A DNA stretch of 64,000 bases, taken from contig NZ_OY781371.1 of assembly GCF_963676665.1 (NCBI RefSeq), positions 248,001 to 312,000 of the forward strand. Reading direction: 5' to 3'. Made by a program: the position numbers and the translations under genes. Origin of the DNA: an uncultured Tolumonas sp. Its GTDB lineage: Bacteria > Pseudomonadota > Gammaproteobacteria > Enterobacterales > Aeromonadaceae. Shown here one piece after another: positions 43,394 through 59,841 of this stretch. Under the pieces are notes generated by a model that had not been told where the DNA came from, ran no database searches, and worked only from the letters and a program-made list of their open reading frames with translations. Position 1 is the stretch's first letter. Each line of letters starts with the position of its first letter.

Positions 43394-43519
43394 ATACCCT
43401 TTGTTCTTGAAGTTGCAGCTGCGTTGACGGCGTTCTTTCACCCCAATCACACAGTCTATCTATGCTCATGGGGATTCATTCTCTTGTCGCCTTGCTGCAA
43501 CGCCAATTACTTTGGGTAT
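43394..43519 (+). repeat. ERIC-family repeat, copy 1
   Basis: 126 bp bounded by ATACCC and GGGTAT, with extended inverted ends (TTGAAGTTGCAGC and GCTGCAACGCCAA). The core reads CACCCCAATCACACAG and CTCATGGGGATTC, equivalent to the ERIC core used for the ERIC1R/ERIC2 fingerprint primers. It lies in the 5' leader of tal, ending 28 nt before the tal start codon, and downstream of the araA hairpin. Confidence 0.85.
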
Positions 43520-43544
43520 ATGTCGAGGTTTATACAGAAGTTAT

Positions 43545-51521: not shown

Positions 51522-53135
51522 ATGAAAATATCAGCCAAATTGATCCTGCTTATCAGCCTTGCATTCTTGGGTTGTTTGGCTGTCGGTGGTGTTGCGCTAG
51601 GGCGCTTGTCGGTGCTGAATACAGAAATTCGTTCACTGAGCGACAAAACCATTCCCGGTATTGAGCAACTGAAAAACATCAACACTGCATTTTTAGATCT
51701 ACGTCTGCTGGTTAACCGACATGCACTGTCATTCGATGGTGATGAGAAAAAAGCGCTGGATGAACGCATTCAAGCTAAACAACAGCAGCTCAAACAGAGT
51801 TTACAAAGCTACAAAGCTTTACTGACATCGGAAGAAAACAAGGCATATGCGCAGACGGAAAAATTATTACTCAGTTATCTGACGGCTGCCGATGAAGTGT
51901 TAACACTGTCGCGTAAATATCAAAATAGCAAAGCCCAGGAATTGATGGTCGCCCTGACCGAACAGGGCGATAAGATCACTACCTTGTTGGATCAAGCCAC
52001 CGCACAAAATCATCAGCAAGTGCAAACCAGCAGCCAGCGGGCGGGGGCGGCGTATGACAATGCATTAAGTCAGCTGATCCTGAGCGTTGTAGTAGTACTG
52101 GTCGGTTTAATGCTGGTGGGCGGCTGGTTGTTCTGGCAGATCCGGCATGGCATCCGCAGTGCGGTTTCTACCATCAGCCGCATTGAACAAAGCCGCGATT
52201 TTACCTTACGCGCCGAAATCAAAAGTAACGATGAAATCTCCCATCTGTTGATGGCCTTTAACGCCTTAATTGCCCGCTTGCAGGAAAACTTTGGTCAGTT
52301 TCAGCATGGTATTCAACAGGTCACCTCCATCTCAGATCGATTGTTAGATGCCGCCAGTGGCGTTTCCAATACGGCAGGTATACAGCAAACCTCTTCCAGC
52401 CAGATGGCCGCCGCCGTTGAACAGATGACGGTCAGCATTAATCACGTCGCCGATCAGGCGCAGGGCGCCAGCGATCGCTCGCATGAAGCCGGTGATCAAG
52501 CGACACAAGGGCTGGCGGTGATTGCCAATACCGTCGCCGATATTCATGCCATCTCTGCTGCGGTCAGCGAAGCGGCGAAAGAATTGCACAATCTGGAAAA
52601 CCAAAACCGAACCATAGCATCTGTCATTAACGTCATCAGCGATGTGGCGGCGCAGACCAACTTGTTAGCACTCAATGCGGCCATTGAAGCGGCGCGGGCT
52701 GGTGAAATGGGGCGTGGTTTTGCGGTAGTGGCAGATGAGGTGCGGAATCTGGCGGCACGCACGGCATCAGCCACGCAAGAGATCGGTAGCATCATTAATA
52801 ATGTGCAAAACCTGTCAGCCAGTGCGGTGCACCTGATGCAAGAAGCCGTTACCAAGGTGGAAGCGGGCGTTAGCAGTGCCGGTGAAGCGAGCCAGAAGAT
52901 GAATGATATCTGCAGTGTGGCGGGCGATAGCGAAGCATTAGTACAGGACATTTCTCATGCCATTCGTGAACAAGGGCAAGCTACGGACGTTATTGCGCAA
53001 CAGGTCGAAACAGTGGCGCAACAGGCGAATGAGAATAGCAGTTCGGCTGCATCCTGCCAGAAGTTGGCCAATGAACTGACCAGTATTGCACACAGCATGG
53101 ATGATGTTTTGCGGTCATATACCCTTAGTTCTTGA
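51522..53135 (+). CDS. Methyl-accepting chemotaxis protein in the arabinose cluster
   Basis: A 537-aa chemoreceptor. An N-terminal membrane segment (about 5-28) is followed by a four-helix-bundle periplasmic domain (30-185), a second membrane segment (about 188-210), a HAMP domain ([20 protein letters not shown]) and a cytoplasmic coiled coil. The conserved hairpin tip [20 protein letters not shown] begins near residue 374. It sits between araH and araC, so arabinose taxis, perhaps via AraF, is a fair guess. The C-terminus is odd: residues YTLSS and the stop codon are encoded by the ERIC repeat that begins at 53119. No CheR-docking pentapeptide is present. Confidence 0.92.
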
Positions 53136-53244
53136 CGTTGCAGTGTCGTTGACGGCGTTCACTCACCCCAATCACATAGCCTGTCTATGCTCATGGGGAT
53201 TCGCTCACTTGTCGCCTCGCTGCAACGCCAATTACTTTGGGTAT
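53119..53244 (+). repeat. ERIC-family repeat, copy 2
   Basis: 126 bp bounded by ATACCC and GGGTAT, in the same orientation as the other copies, with the core CACCCCAATCACATAG and CTCATGGGGATTC. It overlaps the last 17 bp of the chemoreceptor gene and provides its stop codon. Confidence 0.85.
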
Positions 53245-53375
53245 ATCACTGATGACATGGTCAGGCTGGCAAAATGATAACGTTTACACAGGTGTAATTG
53301 ATAAGTGTGATGGAACTCAATTACCTGATGGAATTATCCCCGATCTACACAGCAAATTAATGGTGGCTGAATACA

Positions 53376-54306: not shown

Positions 54307-54433
54307 GATACCCTTCGTACTTGAAATTGCAGCATCGTTGACGGTGTTCACTCACCCCAATCACATAGTCTATCTATGCTCATGGGGATTCGTTCACTTG
54401 TCGCCTTGCTGCAACTCCAATTCCTTTGGGTAT
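54307..54433 (+). repeat. ERIC-family repeat, copy 3
   Basis: 127 bp bounded by ATACCC and GGGTAT, the same orientation as the others, with the best-preserved core (CACCCCAATCACATAG, CTCATGGGGATTC) and ends (TTGAAATTGCAGC, GCTGCAACTCCAA). It lies 20 bp after araC and overlaps the 3' end of the acetyltransferase gene on the minus strand. Confidence 0.87.
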
Positions 54434-54936
54434 AGCGGGGTAGGCAGCAGTAGCTGGTAAAAGGCCAGATCCAGCCAGTCGCCAAACTTAAATCCGGCAT
54501 GCCGAATCGTGCCGGCATGCACAAAGCCCAGTTTCTCGTGCAACGCGATACTGCCTTGATTGCTGGCATCAATGCTGCCAATCAGCGTGTGATAGTTTTG
54601 CGCTTGTGCCAGTTCAATCAGATGTTGCATCAGTGTTTGCGCAATACCTTGTCCGCGAAAAGGGGCTGCCACATACACCGAATGTTCGAGTGTGTATTTG
54701 TTGGCCGGATAGGCGCGGAAGCTGCCGTAACTGGCAAAACCCATCAATTCACCGGATTCATTTTCGATCCCAATCACCGGATAGTGGCCGAGTTCCTTGT
54801 TTTTAAACCATGACACCATGTTGTCCATCGTGCGGGCCTGATAATCATACAGCGCGGTGGAATGCAAAATGGCATCGTTAAAGATGGCGAGGATAGCAGC
54901 CGCATGCCGCTCATAACTACATTGAATAATTTGCAT
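54394..54936 (-). CDS. GNAT acetyltransferase, phosphinothricin-type
   Basis: A 180-aa GNAT-family N-acetyltransferase similar to PAT/YncA proteins: AILAIFNDAILHSTALYDY near residue 14, a central acetyl-CoA loop PFRGQGIAQTLMQHLIE near 92, and ASNQGSIALHEKLGFVHAGTIRHAGFKFGDWLDL near 123-156. Substrate could be an amino acid such as methionine sulfoximine or an amine. The start at 54936 fits family N-termini; an upstream in-frame ATG at 54999 adds 21 residues. The last 12 residues (YPKELELQQGDK) and stop codon are encoded by ERIC copy 3, so the native C-terminus was probably replaced. Confidence 0.88.
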   Translation of the reverse strand: MQIIQCSYERHAAAILAIFNDAILHSTALYDYQARTMDNMVSWFKNKELGHYPVIGIENESGELMGFASYGSFRAYPANKYTLEHSVYVAAPFRGQGIAQTLMQHLIELAQAQNYHTLIGSIDASNQGSIALHEKLGFVHAGTIRHAGFKFGDWLDLAFYQLLLPTPLYPKELELQQGDK

Positions 54937-58019: not shown

Positions 58020-59375
58020 TTATTTTCCCAGCAGACGTTGATGCAGTTTTTGTACAACCAATGAGGCATCCGATTCCGGCACCAAGAAGCAAAGGTTATG
58101 CGTGCTGGCACCGTAGCAGATCATGCGCACGTTATGTTCGCTAACCGCGTCGAAAACTTGCGTACCCACGCCATTCACTTCGCTCATGCGGTTACCAATC
58201 AGCGCAACCAGTGCCAGATCGGTTTCCACTTTCACTTTACAGAACGCATTCAGTTCATCTAATACACCGTCATTCAATACAGAACGACCGGTGGATGAGC
58301 TGCCGGTTTGATCCAGCGTGATAGCAACACTCACTTCAGAAGTAGTGATCAGATCAACCGAGATGCCGTGTTTGGCCAGAATGGTGAACACTTGGGCCAG
58401 GAAGCCGCAGGCATGCAGCATGTTCGGGCTGTGCAGCGTTAACAGGATCTGGTTACGGCGCAGAGCTACCGCACGGAATAGCGGGTTTGATTCGGTGGTA
58501 TCACGTACCCAGGTGCCGCCAGCTGCAGGCTCTTTACTGGAGCCAACAAAGACCGGAATACCTTTACGTACCGCAGGCTGCAAGGTCGCCGGATGCAACA
58601 CTTTGGCACCGAAAGTTGCCATTTCCGCCGCTTCAGAGAAAGAGATCTCCGGGATCGGGTGCGCTTCTTTCACCAAACGAGGATCGGTGGTGTAGATGCC
58701 CGGTACGTCAGTCCAGATCTCCAGTTCATCAACACCCAGTGCTTCTGCCAGCAATGCGGCGCTGAAATCACTACCGCCACGGCCCAGCGTGGTGGTTTGA
58801 CCATCAGCATTGGCACCGATGAAACCTTGCGTGATCACGATATGGTCTTTCAGCAGCCCAGCCATTTCCTGCTGTGCCAGATTATGGATCGCTTCAATAG
58901 CCGGTGTGGCGCGGCCAAAACGGCTGTCAGTGCGCAATACTTTACGCACATCAAACCACACGGCTTTGTGACCAAGATGGTTCATCATATCGGTGAACAG
59001 GCGGGTCGACATCAGCTCGCCTTGCGCTACTAAACGATCTTCCAGAGCAGCATCGCTGTTCTGAGTCGCCTGACGCGCCATATCGGCGATCTCTTTTAAG
59101 ATCCCATCAATGGTTTGACGCAGTGGGGCAGGGTTACCCAATTCATTCAGAATGTTGTCCTGAATAGATTTGAGTTTTTTCAGATGAATTTCCTGCTCGG
59201 CAGCGGATAACGTTCCCCGTGCCAGATCAACCAGCAGGTTGGTTACGCCAGAGCTGGCGCTCAACACCACCACACGGGTGTTAGCAGTTTGGGTAACGAT
59301 GGCTGCGCAACGGCGCATGGCTTCGGCATCGGCGACACTTGTGCCACCAAATTTAGCAACAGTAACCTTGCTCAC
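58020..59375 (-). CDS. lysC: Lysine-sensitive aspartokinase III
   Basis: LysC phosphorylates aspartate at the head of the lysine branch. The chosen GTG start (VSKVTVAKFGGTSVAD) gives 451 aa, against 449 in E. coli, and has AAGGAG seven bases upstream. An in-frame GTG at 59456 would add 27 residues encoded by the ERIC repeat and is rejected. Motifs are KFGGTSVAD, TTLGRGGSDFSAALLAEAL near residue 200, TDVPGIYTTDPR, and two ACT domains near 310-450 (SVDLITTSEVSVAITLD) that bind lysine. A lysine riboswitch lies in its leader. It is convergent with the chemoreceptor gene. Confidence 0.95.
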   Translation of the reverse strand: MSKVTVAKFGGTSVADAEAMRRCAAIVTQTANTRVVVLSASSGVTNLLVDLARGTLSAAEQEIHLKKLKSIQDNILNELGNPAPLRQTIDGILKEIADMARQATQNSDAALEDRLVAQGELMSTRLFTDMMNHLGHKAVWFDVRKVLRTDSRFGRATPAIEAIHNLAQQEMAGLLKDHIVITQGFIGANADGQTTTLGRGGSDFSAALLAEALGVDELEIWTDVPGIYTTDPRLVKEAHPIPEISFSEAAEMATFGAKVLHPATLQPAVRKGIPVFVGSSKEPAAGGTWVRDTTESNPLFRAVALRRNQILLTLHSPNMLHACGFLAQVFTILAKHGISVDLITTSEVSVAITLDQTGSSSTGRSVLNDGVLDELNAFCKVKVETDLALVALIGNRMSEVNGVGTQVFDAVSEHNVRMICYGASTHNLCFLVPESDASLVVQKLHQRLLGK

Positions 59376-59399
59376 GGGCTCTCCTTGAATTAAGCAGGG

Positions 59400-59525
59400 A
59401 TACCTTTCCCACTTGAAGTTGCAGTGGCGTTGGCTACTCTCATTCGCCCCAATCACATAGTTTATCTATGCTCATGGGGTCTCATTCACTTGCCGCCTAC
59501 CTGCAACTCCAATTGGTTTGGGTAT
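59400..59525 (+). repeat. ERIC-family repeat, copy 4
   Basis: 126 bp bounded by ATACC and GGGTAT, the most diverged of the four copies but with clear ends (TTGAAGTTGCAG, CTGCAACTCCAA) and core (GCCCCAATCACATAG, CTCATGGGG). It lies between the lysine riboswitch aptamer and the lysC ribosome binding site, ending 25 nt before the lysC start codon. Confidence 0.82.
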
Positions 59526-59582
59526 ATAACAAACTGATACAACGAAGGTGCAACTTGTGCGGCAGGAAGGGAATTCTTTCCA

Positions 59583-59748
59583 GCCAGAAGCGCTCCACCC
59601 TCAGGTGACAGCCCGGAGGATTCAGCCTCCGCAGCCGACAACCACCATCGCCAAAGATGATGCTTATCTCGGCGTTACTCCCCCTGACTGACCTTCAACG
59701 GTTTTTGGCACCTGTTGTCAGCGACCTGGGTAACGCTCCTCTTCTGGC
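59583..59748 (-). promoter_or_regulatory. Lysine riboswitch (L box) aptamer
   Basis: On the minus strand the closing stem P1 is formed by GCCAGAAG (59748-59741) and CTTCTGGC (59590-59583). Conserved L-box elements follow in order: AGAAGAGGAGCG at the start, GGAGGCTGAATCCTCC forming one arm hairpin, then GTCACCTGAGGGTGGAGCGCTTCTGG at the end (given here only as a position guide, 59610-59584). Lysine binding should reduce lysC expression. The usual expression platform next to P1 is interrupted by the ERIC element, described under findings. Confidence 0.92.
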
Positions 59749-59832
59749 CCCATTTAACGTAGCTGCGGATAGCAAAGCTATGCGGATCTGCGCTGTGTTG
59801 GATGGGGTGCAAATTTATGTATTTGCGCGCTT

Positions 59833-59841
59833 ATTGTAACA
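59833..59841 (-). promoter_or_regulatory. Extended -10 promoter for the lysC leader
   Basis: On the minus strand TGTTACAAT is an extended -10 element (TG-N-TACAAT), about 85 bp before the riboswitch P1 stem. No good -35 is seen. Transcription would start near 59826, giving a leader of about 450 nt that includes aptamer and ERIC. Confidence 0.5.

Follow-up and report, generated by a model that had tools for sequence, protein, structure and literature searches.

A 126-nt ERIC element between the lysine riboswitch and the start of lysC in Tolumonas, possibly a tolerated insertion

We analyzed the leader of lysC in a Tolumonas genome (G000, 4.2 Mb), within a stretch of 64,000 nucleotides hereafter called the window, and found that a 126-nt ERIC element separates a complete lysine riboswitch from the ribosome-binding site of the gene. 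Sequence comparison and folding models suggest, at close to even odds (probability about 0.48), that the ERIC is a MITE insertion tolerated in a permissive joint, with the sensing and switching parts intact and lysine control probably kept. With matched empty sites in eight relatives, the locus amounts to an insertion experiment done by nature. One can test there to what extent, and through which output, a lysine riboswitch acts on a gene that a hairpin has displaced by 126 nt, and whether mobile hairpins contribute to the making of regulatory RNAs. A search of titles, abstract starts and text passages, from a literature with few subscription papers, brought up no ERIC reported from a riboswitch leader; a review deems riboswitch formation by MITEs conceivable (PMC10969869). 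The parts of the leader are as follows.

59833..59838, minus strand: putative -10 element of lysC, TACAAT, assigned by eye; the ERIC would then be transcribed within the leader
59580..59751, minus strand: lysine riboswitch aptamer RF00168 (Rfam, 89.7 bits)
59583..59590, minus strand: 3' strand of P1, CTTCTGGC, used in P1 when lysine is bound and in the predicted anti-P1 helix when it is not
59544..59571, minus strand: anti-P1 strand, CCCTTCCTGCCGCACAAGTTGCACCTTC, predicted to pair in the ON state with the 3' half of the aptamer; it ends 19 nt upstream of the ERIC
59533..59540, minus strand: 5' outer arm of the predicted start-codon hairpin, GTATCAGT; the ERIC lies between this arm and the rest of the hairpin
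59399..59524, minus strand: ERIC element (MITE), 126 nt, at a TA site, identified from the genome repeat family and the genus alignment
59391..59398, minus strand: 5' inner arm of the predicted start-codon hairpin, CCTGCTTA, which pairs with TGAGCAAGG on folding
59381..59386, minus strand: Shine-Dalgarno (SD) sequence AAGGAG, assigned by eye
58020..59375, minus strand: lysC, lysine-sensitive aspartokinase 3, 451 aa, GTG start (NF006570 match)

The lysC product, with its GTG start at 59375(-), scored 694.2 bits against NF006570 (cut-off 455), and its nearest named relatives were Aeromonadaceae, among the best 80 of 580 candidates, a set from which near genomes may be left out. The preliminary description had placed an intact L-box aptamer at 59583-59748, and the Rfam match at 59580-59751(-) agreed with it, covering model positions 1-182 of 182 with an E-value of 4.3e-23 (gathering score 30). 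As expected for members of RF00168, the aptamer lies directly upstream of a lysine-biosynthesis gene. The putative -10 position reads TTACAAT or TTAGAAT in the genus alignment, and a promoter scan of the region found no sigma-70-like site. On the minus strand the order is complete aptamer, 58-nt platform, 126-nt ERIC, SD and lysC. The last base of P1 (59583) is 196 nt from the SD and ~207 nt from the GTG, so that the distance of over 200 nt from P1 claimed earlier holds for the start codon and is slightly too long for the ribosome site. We also noted that upstream of lysC its frame remains open for some way into the ERIC, as far as a GTG at 59456 that would add 27 residues; this codon has no clear SD and its use as a start is improbable.

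We compared the site in 11 Tolumonas genomes, two of which, G000 and G006, belong to the same species. Every genome had one lysine riboswitch, ahead of lysC. The full ERIC was present in 2 of the 11 (G000 and G006), a clean empty site in eight and a short, internally deleted ERIC in one (G004). The distance from the aptamer end to the GTG was 204 nt in G000 and G006, 125 nt in G004 and 77-78 nt in the other eight; the equally long spacing in ERIC-free relatives that the preliminary description had named as a refutation was thus not seen. Relative to these congeners, the 126 nt (59524-59399) are added after ...GTTTGTTATA and before CCTGC, and there is one extra A beside the SD in G000. The eight ERIC-free genomes have in common GTTTGTTATACCTGCTTAT, followed by TC or CT and then AAGGAG. 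The empty target site reads GTTTGTTATACCTGC and the filled site GTTTGTTATATACCC...GGTATCCCTGC, indicating insertion at a TA with target duplication; the duplication is near-exact, with two extra bases at the right end of the filled site. G006, the second assembly of the species, carries the same element with one substitution, which makes an assembly error unlikely. The empty-site alignment and the repeat family thus bore out the claim of a 126-nt ERIC between the riboswitch and the lysC ribosome site.

The short element of G004 has both ERIC ends without the middle and occupies the same TA site. This coincidence would be explained by a single ancestral insertion that was precisely lost in most species, the G004 element being a remnant, and the grouping of G006 with the ERIC-free G008 (89/90) rather than with G000 in a 513-nt lysC tree points the same way. 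In that tree, whose deeper forks are open, G000 and G006 belong to a clade of six genomes from which G004 is excluded (95/99), and the insert is absent from four genomes within this clade and four outside it. Compared over 41 nt, the G004 element and the lysC ERIC of G000 have 7 differences; against three other G004 copies there are 3, 4 and 8. The closest of 57 copies, from G007 and G010, differ from it at 2 positions. Because G004 lies outside the clade and its element has closer copies elsewhere, two independent insertions are probable, favoured by these sequences and not proven, and the single-insertion account appears very doubtful. The G006/G008 grouping suggests that the history at the lysC locus was not simple.

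The insert in the lysC leader is one of at least 35 ERIC-like matches in G000 (40 of 42 candidates scored). It aligns over its own length with 29 other copies in the genome, which identifies it as a real repeat. The family was named ERIC on the basis of the ERIC consensus, together with matches of its HMM in Kosakonia, Cedecea and Providencia. The number of matches per Tolumonas genome ranged from 2 to at least 40, and by ORF context 30 G000 copies comprised 16 between tandem genes, 7 convergent, 4 divergent and 3 unclassified. Three further copies occur in the window at 53131-53249, 54307-54434 and 43406-43521 (301131-301249, 302307-302434 and 291406-291521 in the coordinates of G000:C4). Two G000 copies, L182 1449-1537 and L183 1875-2024, are length variants, one through an internal deletion and the other through a small insert, and no autonomous parent was seen in these two partial copies. 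An Rfam scan reaching 1.5 kb to either side, run on 29 of the 34 G000 copies outside this leader and on 11 copies in related genomes, gave only tRNAs and no other riboswitch. Published accounts of the ERIC/IRU/RU-1 MITEs of enterobacteria and Vibrio describe palindromes of ~127 bp with TA ends and many intergenic copies (PMC2229807, PMC10969869). The Tolumonas copy resembles them in all these respects; it differs in its host, an Aeromonadaceae genus, and in lying within a riboswitch leader, downstream of the switching module and upstream of the ribosome-binding site.

We then considered the position of the insert relative to the switch. In the ON state predicted by folding, the platform strand CUUCCUGCC...GCACCUUC pairs with the 3' half of the aptamer (GAGGGUGGAGCGCUUCUGGCUGGAA), and the resulting helix is incompatible with P1. 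In the 7 of the 11 genus leaders that were modelled, the GGC/GCC core of this anti-P1 helix had a probability of 1.00 (ON model) or 0.64-1.00 (full-leader model). The ERIC is downstream of this whole predicted module, aptamer and anti-P1 strand, and the models therefore suggest that the ligand-dependent choice between P1 and the anti-P1 helix uses only sequence transcribed before the ERIC. The preliminary description had offered three outcomes, namely loss of control, a rewired platform, or termination or decay upstream; from sequence and models, a switching module that is whole upstream with an insert that is tolerated would fit best.

A rather unlikely alternative is that the ERIC uncouples the riboswitch, so that lysine is still bound while the start region has become autonomous and lysC is constitutive or expressed at an altered level. 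The growth of the aptamer-GTG spacing from 77-78 to 204 nt is in its favour. Against it, aptamer and platform of G000 show 0/166 and 0/58 changes relative to both G006 and G009, although a recent insertion would look alike, and the intact parts could also reflect one. For scale, G000 and the ERIC-free G009 differ at 102 of 1200 nt in argA and its surroundings and at 68 of 1000 in lysC, and in six close genomes the platform had 0/58 changes, the aptamer 0-2/166 and the promoter up to 37/300. Between G000 and G006 the differences were 1/127 in the ERIC, 1/300 in the promoter, 18/1203 in part of argA and 60/1296 in lysC. The idea that the ERIC is conserved as if functional was dropped, since its single change resembles the neighbouring promoter and is too few to tell.

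Folding of the start region bears on the same alternative. The predicted start-codon hairpin pairs CCUGCUUA with UGAGCAAGG and is extended by CAGU with ACUG. Within the ERIC of G000, 98% of the pairing was internal in both the ON and the full-leader models, in line with the earlier claim that the element folds on its own. With the real ERIC, P1 formed and the aptamer omitted, the mean probability of the inner hairpin was 0.81, and the outer helix, which the ERIC splits, reached 0.89. With 150 dinucleotide-shuffled inserts the outer helix fell to a mean of 0.02 and none of the 150 reached 0.89, while the inner helix was less special (shuffled mean 0.33; 28/150, or 19%, as high or higher). Other ERIC copies of G000 placed at the site held the outer helix above 0.5 in 21 of 29 cases, and the reverse complement gave 0.49. 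That shuffled inserts of the same length break the outer helix agrees with uncoupling, whereas the self-folding of the real ERIC, which keeps the hairpin in the aptamer-free models, argues against it. In the full-leader models, by contrast, run with no ligand and no tertiary contacts, the outer helix was weak, at 0.07 with the ERIC and at about 0.04 to 0.8 in the four ERIC-free leaders run, and the SD region paired partly with the aptamer core in some leaders. The folding energy of the start region was ordinary (41st percentile of 29 starts). The predicted cost of opening the start codon was 3.7 kcal/mol in ERIC-free leaders such as that of G009 and 1.8 kcal/mol in G000, and that of the initiation region 15.1 and 11.6 kcal/mol, respectively. 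With the insert the start region is thus predicted to open more easily, as uncoupling would have it, and expression may therefore change.

The beginning of lysC itself is also conserved. Across all 11 genus genomes the third base never varies at the eight degenerate codons that follow the GTG; overall, third bases are invariant in 36 of 138 codons, and the next-longest run is three. This pattern, judged on sequence, fits a constraint on the RNA of the start region. As a separate observation, the first nine lysC codons (59349-59375) are identical in 11/11 genomes, and the gene differs between G004 and G000 at 105 of 515 nt.

The reading of the ERIC as a barrier between aptamer and ribosome site presupposes that the riboswitch occludes that site. 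We therefore measured the best pairing of the platform strand with the SD/start region against shuffles. In all eight ERIC-free Tolumonas leaders it was -6.0 to -6.1 kcal/mol, and 97-99% of shuffles paired more strongly; in leaders with the full ERIC it was -10.4 to -10.7 kcal/mol, with stronger pairing in ~90% of shuffles. The test recovered the E. coli element CCCUUGUG/CACGAGG at -13.4 kcal/mol and gave -11.6 to -15.0 kcal/mol in 7/7 Aeromonas; these E. coli and Aeromonas pairings were themselves not above shuffles (10-47% of shuffles as strong). Low scores were also obtained for Pectobacterium (-6.1), Pragia (-7.4), one Aeromonadaceae MAG (-6.9) and Ruminobacter (-5.4 kcal/mol), so the low Tolumonas score is no proof of absence. 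On these model energies the classical RBS-switch premise is weakened without being disproved and appears doubtful. The abnormal spacing that the preliminary description inferred thus stands, while the occlusion it assumed is in question given the ERIC-free congeners.

The cost of opening the SD was also tried as a measure of translational control. From the P1-formed to the anti-P1 model it fell from 6.1-9.4 to 2.1-4.2 kcal/mol in 7/7 Aeromonas, with no such fall in any of the 11 Tolumonas leaders, ERIC present or absent. Among nine other enteric leaders, some with doubtful start codons and with Citrobacter left out as lacking the P1 motif, the fall was clear only in Pragia. In E. coli, a known translational switch, the two models gave 3.1 and 2.8 kcal/mol. 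The measure was discarded, as it did not separate the two models in E. coli, and the flat Tolumonas result for this reason carries no weight.

Intrinsic termination was also considered. No intrinsic terminator was found on the minus strand between 58900 and 60200; on the plus strand there were 2 terminator-like sites, against 1.7 in shuffles. Terminator or anti-SD platforms are usual in other lysine riboswitches. Such a platform could be present here and have been missed, as their common occurrence and the E. coli anti-SD would lead one to expect and as the failure of the duplex test on some other leaders allows, and a missed anti-SD in the ERIC-free leaders would also favour uncoupling. With no terminator-like site on the minus strand over that interval, and with anti-SD pairing not above shuffles in 8/8 ERIC-free congeners, we regard a missed platform as improbable. 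The E. coli lysC riboswitch resembles that of Tolumonas in its aptamer family, its lysC target and its large anti-P1 stem, into which the aptamer's 3' part is recruited. It has an anti-SD (CCCUUGUG with CACGAGG, of an energy not beyond shuffles), to which no comparable pairing was found in Tolumonas, and it lacks an insert such as the 126-nt ERIC downstream of the Tolumonas anti-P1 strand. The Aeromonas lysC riboswitches have the same gene, aptamer and anti-P1 design; they differ in the fall of the SD opening cost (7/7 against 0/11), a measure that is flat in E. coli too.

Under the preferred reading of a tolerated insertion, a transposable ERIC would have entered an ordinary lysine-riboswitch leader at a TA, in the joint that connects its switching module to the start region. 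There it would fold on itself and, in the aptamer-free models, make a side arm in an internal loop of the start-codon hairpin without loss of the inner or the outer helix. Lysine control of lysC would be retained, with the anti-P1 strand exposed upon lysine binding as the output, probably in place of classical anti-SD occlusion. The exposed strand may be a target of RNase E, by analogy with E. coli lysC, or of Rho. Rho as the output is a possibility: the 69 nt from the platform to near the SD are mildly C-rich, with 18 C and 12 G (E. coli, 27 C and 19 G in 84). The start hairpin would set a low basal translation rate, and the ERIC itself would be neutral or of mild effect on expression.

Alternatively, the ERIC may act in the mRNA, its folded RNA offering or hiding an RNase E site that sets lysC decay and adds to or replaces lysine-dependent decay. 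Published accounts describe Yersinia ERICs as co-transcribed, with an orientation-dependent, RNase E-linked effect on mRNA decay (De Gregorio 2005 via PMC2229807, PMC10969869), and E. coli lysC as controlled by translation and RNase E (PMC5234074, PMC5584792); both lend the idea support. So do the common orientation of the ERIC matches near lysC in named genomes (11/11 as here, tandem matches not being independent) and the near-identity of the ERIC in G000 and G006 next to a more divergent lysC. Against this, the RNase E site is only putative, the Yersinia effect reportedly concerned transcripts upstream of the element, and the low divergence of the ERIC is like that of the promoter and the argA part and need not mean constraint. 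We therefore hold a role in decay to be unlikely.

We also searched 111 loci with an HMM built from 30 G000 ERIC copies; the loci were 80 named lysC (the best 80 of 580), 30 Aeromonadaceae and one E. coli. There were 11 ERIC matches in 6 loci, all 11 in the lysC orientation. In Cedecea sulfonylureivorans (L096, 1734-1860) the ERIC is within the lysine aptamer, at the tip of P5, and the Rfam match is shortened to 1569-1729. This leader is like that of Tolumonas in carrying an ERIC in the same orientation in a lysine-riboswitch leader, and unlike it in that the ERIC is inside the aptamer rather than downstream of it. In its model, 99.6% of the ERIC pairing was internal, and P1 and the P5 base formed in part, with means of 0.31 and 0.25; the P5 base beat 145 of 150 shuffled inserts, while P1 did not stand out, being matched or exceeded in 63% of shuffles. 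Inspection by eye showed that the same P5 tip carries short hairpins in other Cedecea, Klebsiella and Kosakonia but not in E. coli; these are perhaps decayed inserts. Kosakonia had tandem or single ERICs in the lysC orientation (L086 1302-1680, L094 1461-1692, L090 1595-1683), the nearest of which end 1-22 nt ahead of the aptamer match, before P1. In Cedecea sp. (L074) an ERIC lies upstream of the lysine riboswitch, and in Providencia rettgeri (L107, 1460-1847) three tandem ERICs lie upstream of lysC, in a locus where a search at E 0.01 detected no lysine riboswitch.

The probable second insertion in G004 and the P5 ERIC of Cedecea sulfonylureivorans indicate that lysine-riboswitch leaders accommodate ERICs. 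It is conceivable, though we think it unlikely, that self-folding MITEs recurrently give riboswitch leaders new arms (5' of P1 in Kosakonia, at the P5 tip in Cedecea and twice after the anti-P1 strand in Tolumonas), and that here the ERIC is a working arm of the start hairpin in a rewired expression platform. A class-wide exact-pattern search for ERIC-like sequence in P5 or after the aptamer matched 11 and 13 genomes, respectively, of 369 searched each; apart from the window's own, these matches were judged by eye to be chance, in a set of 369 genomes that held few enterics. In a Succinivibrionaceae MAG (L066, 3553-3836), group II intron domains were seen directly downstream of lysC. Rfam RF02818 (Vibrio RNA AS5) matched the ERICs of L107, L096, L086 and L074 below its gathering score, and this family may itself be an ERIC.
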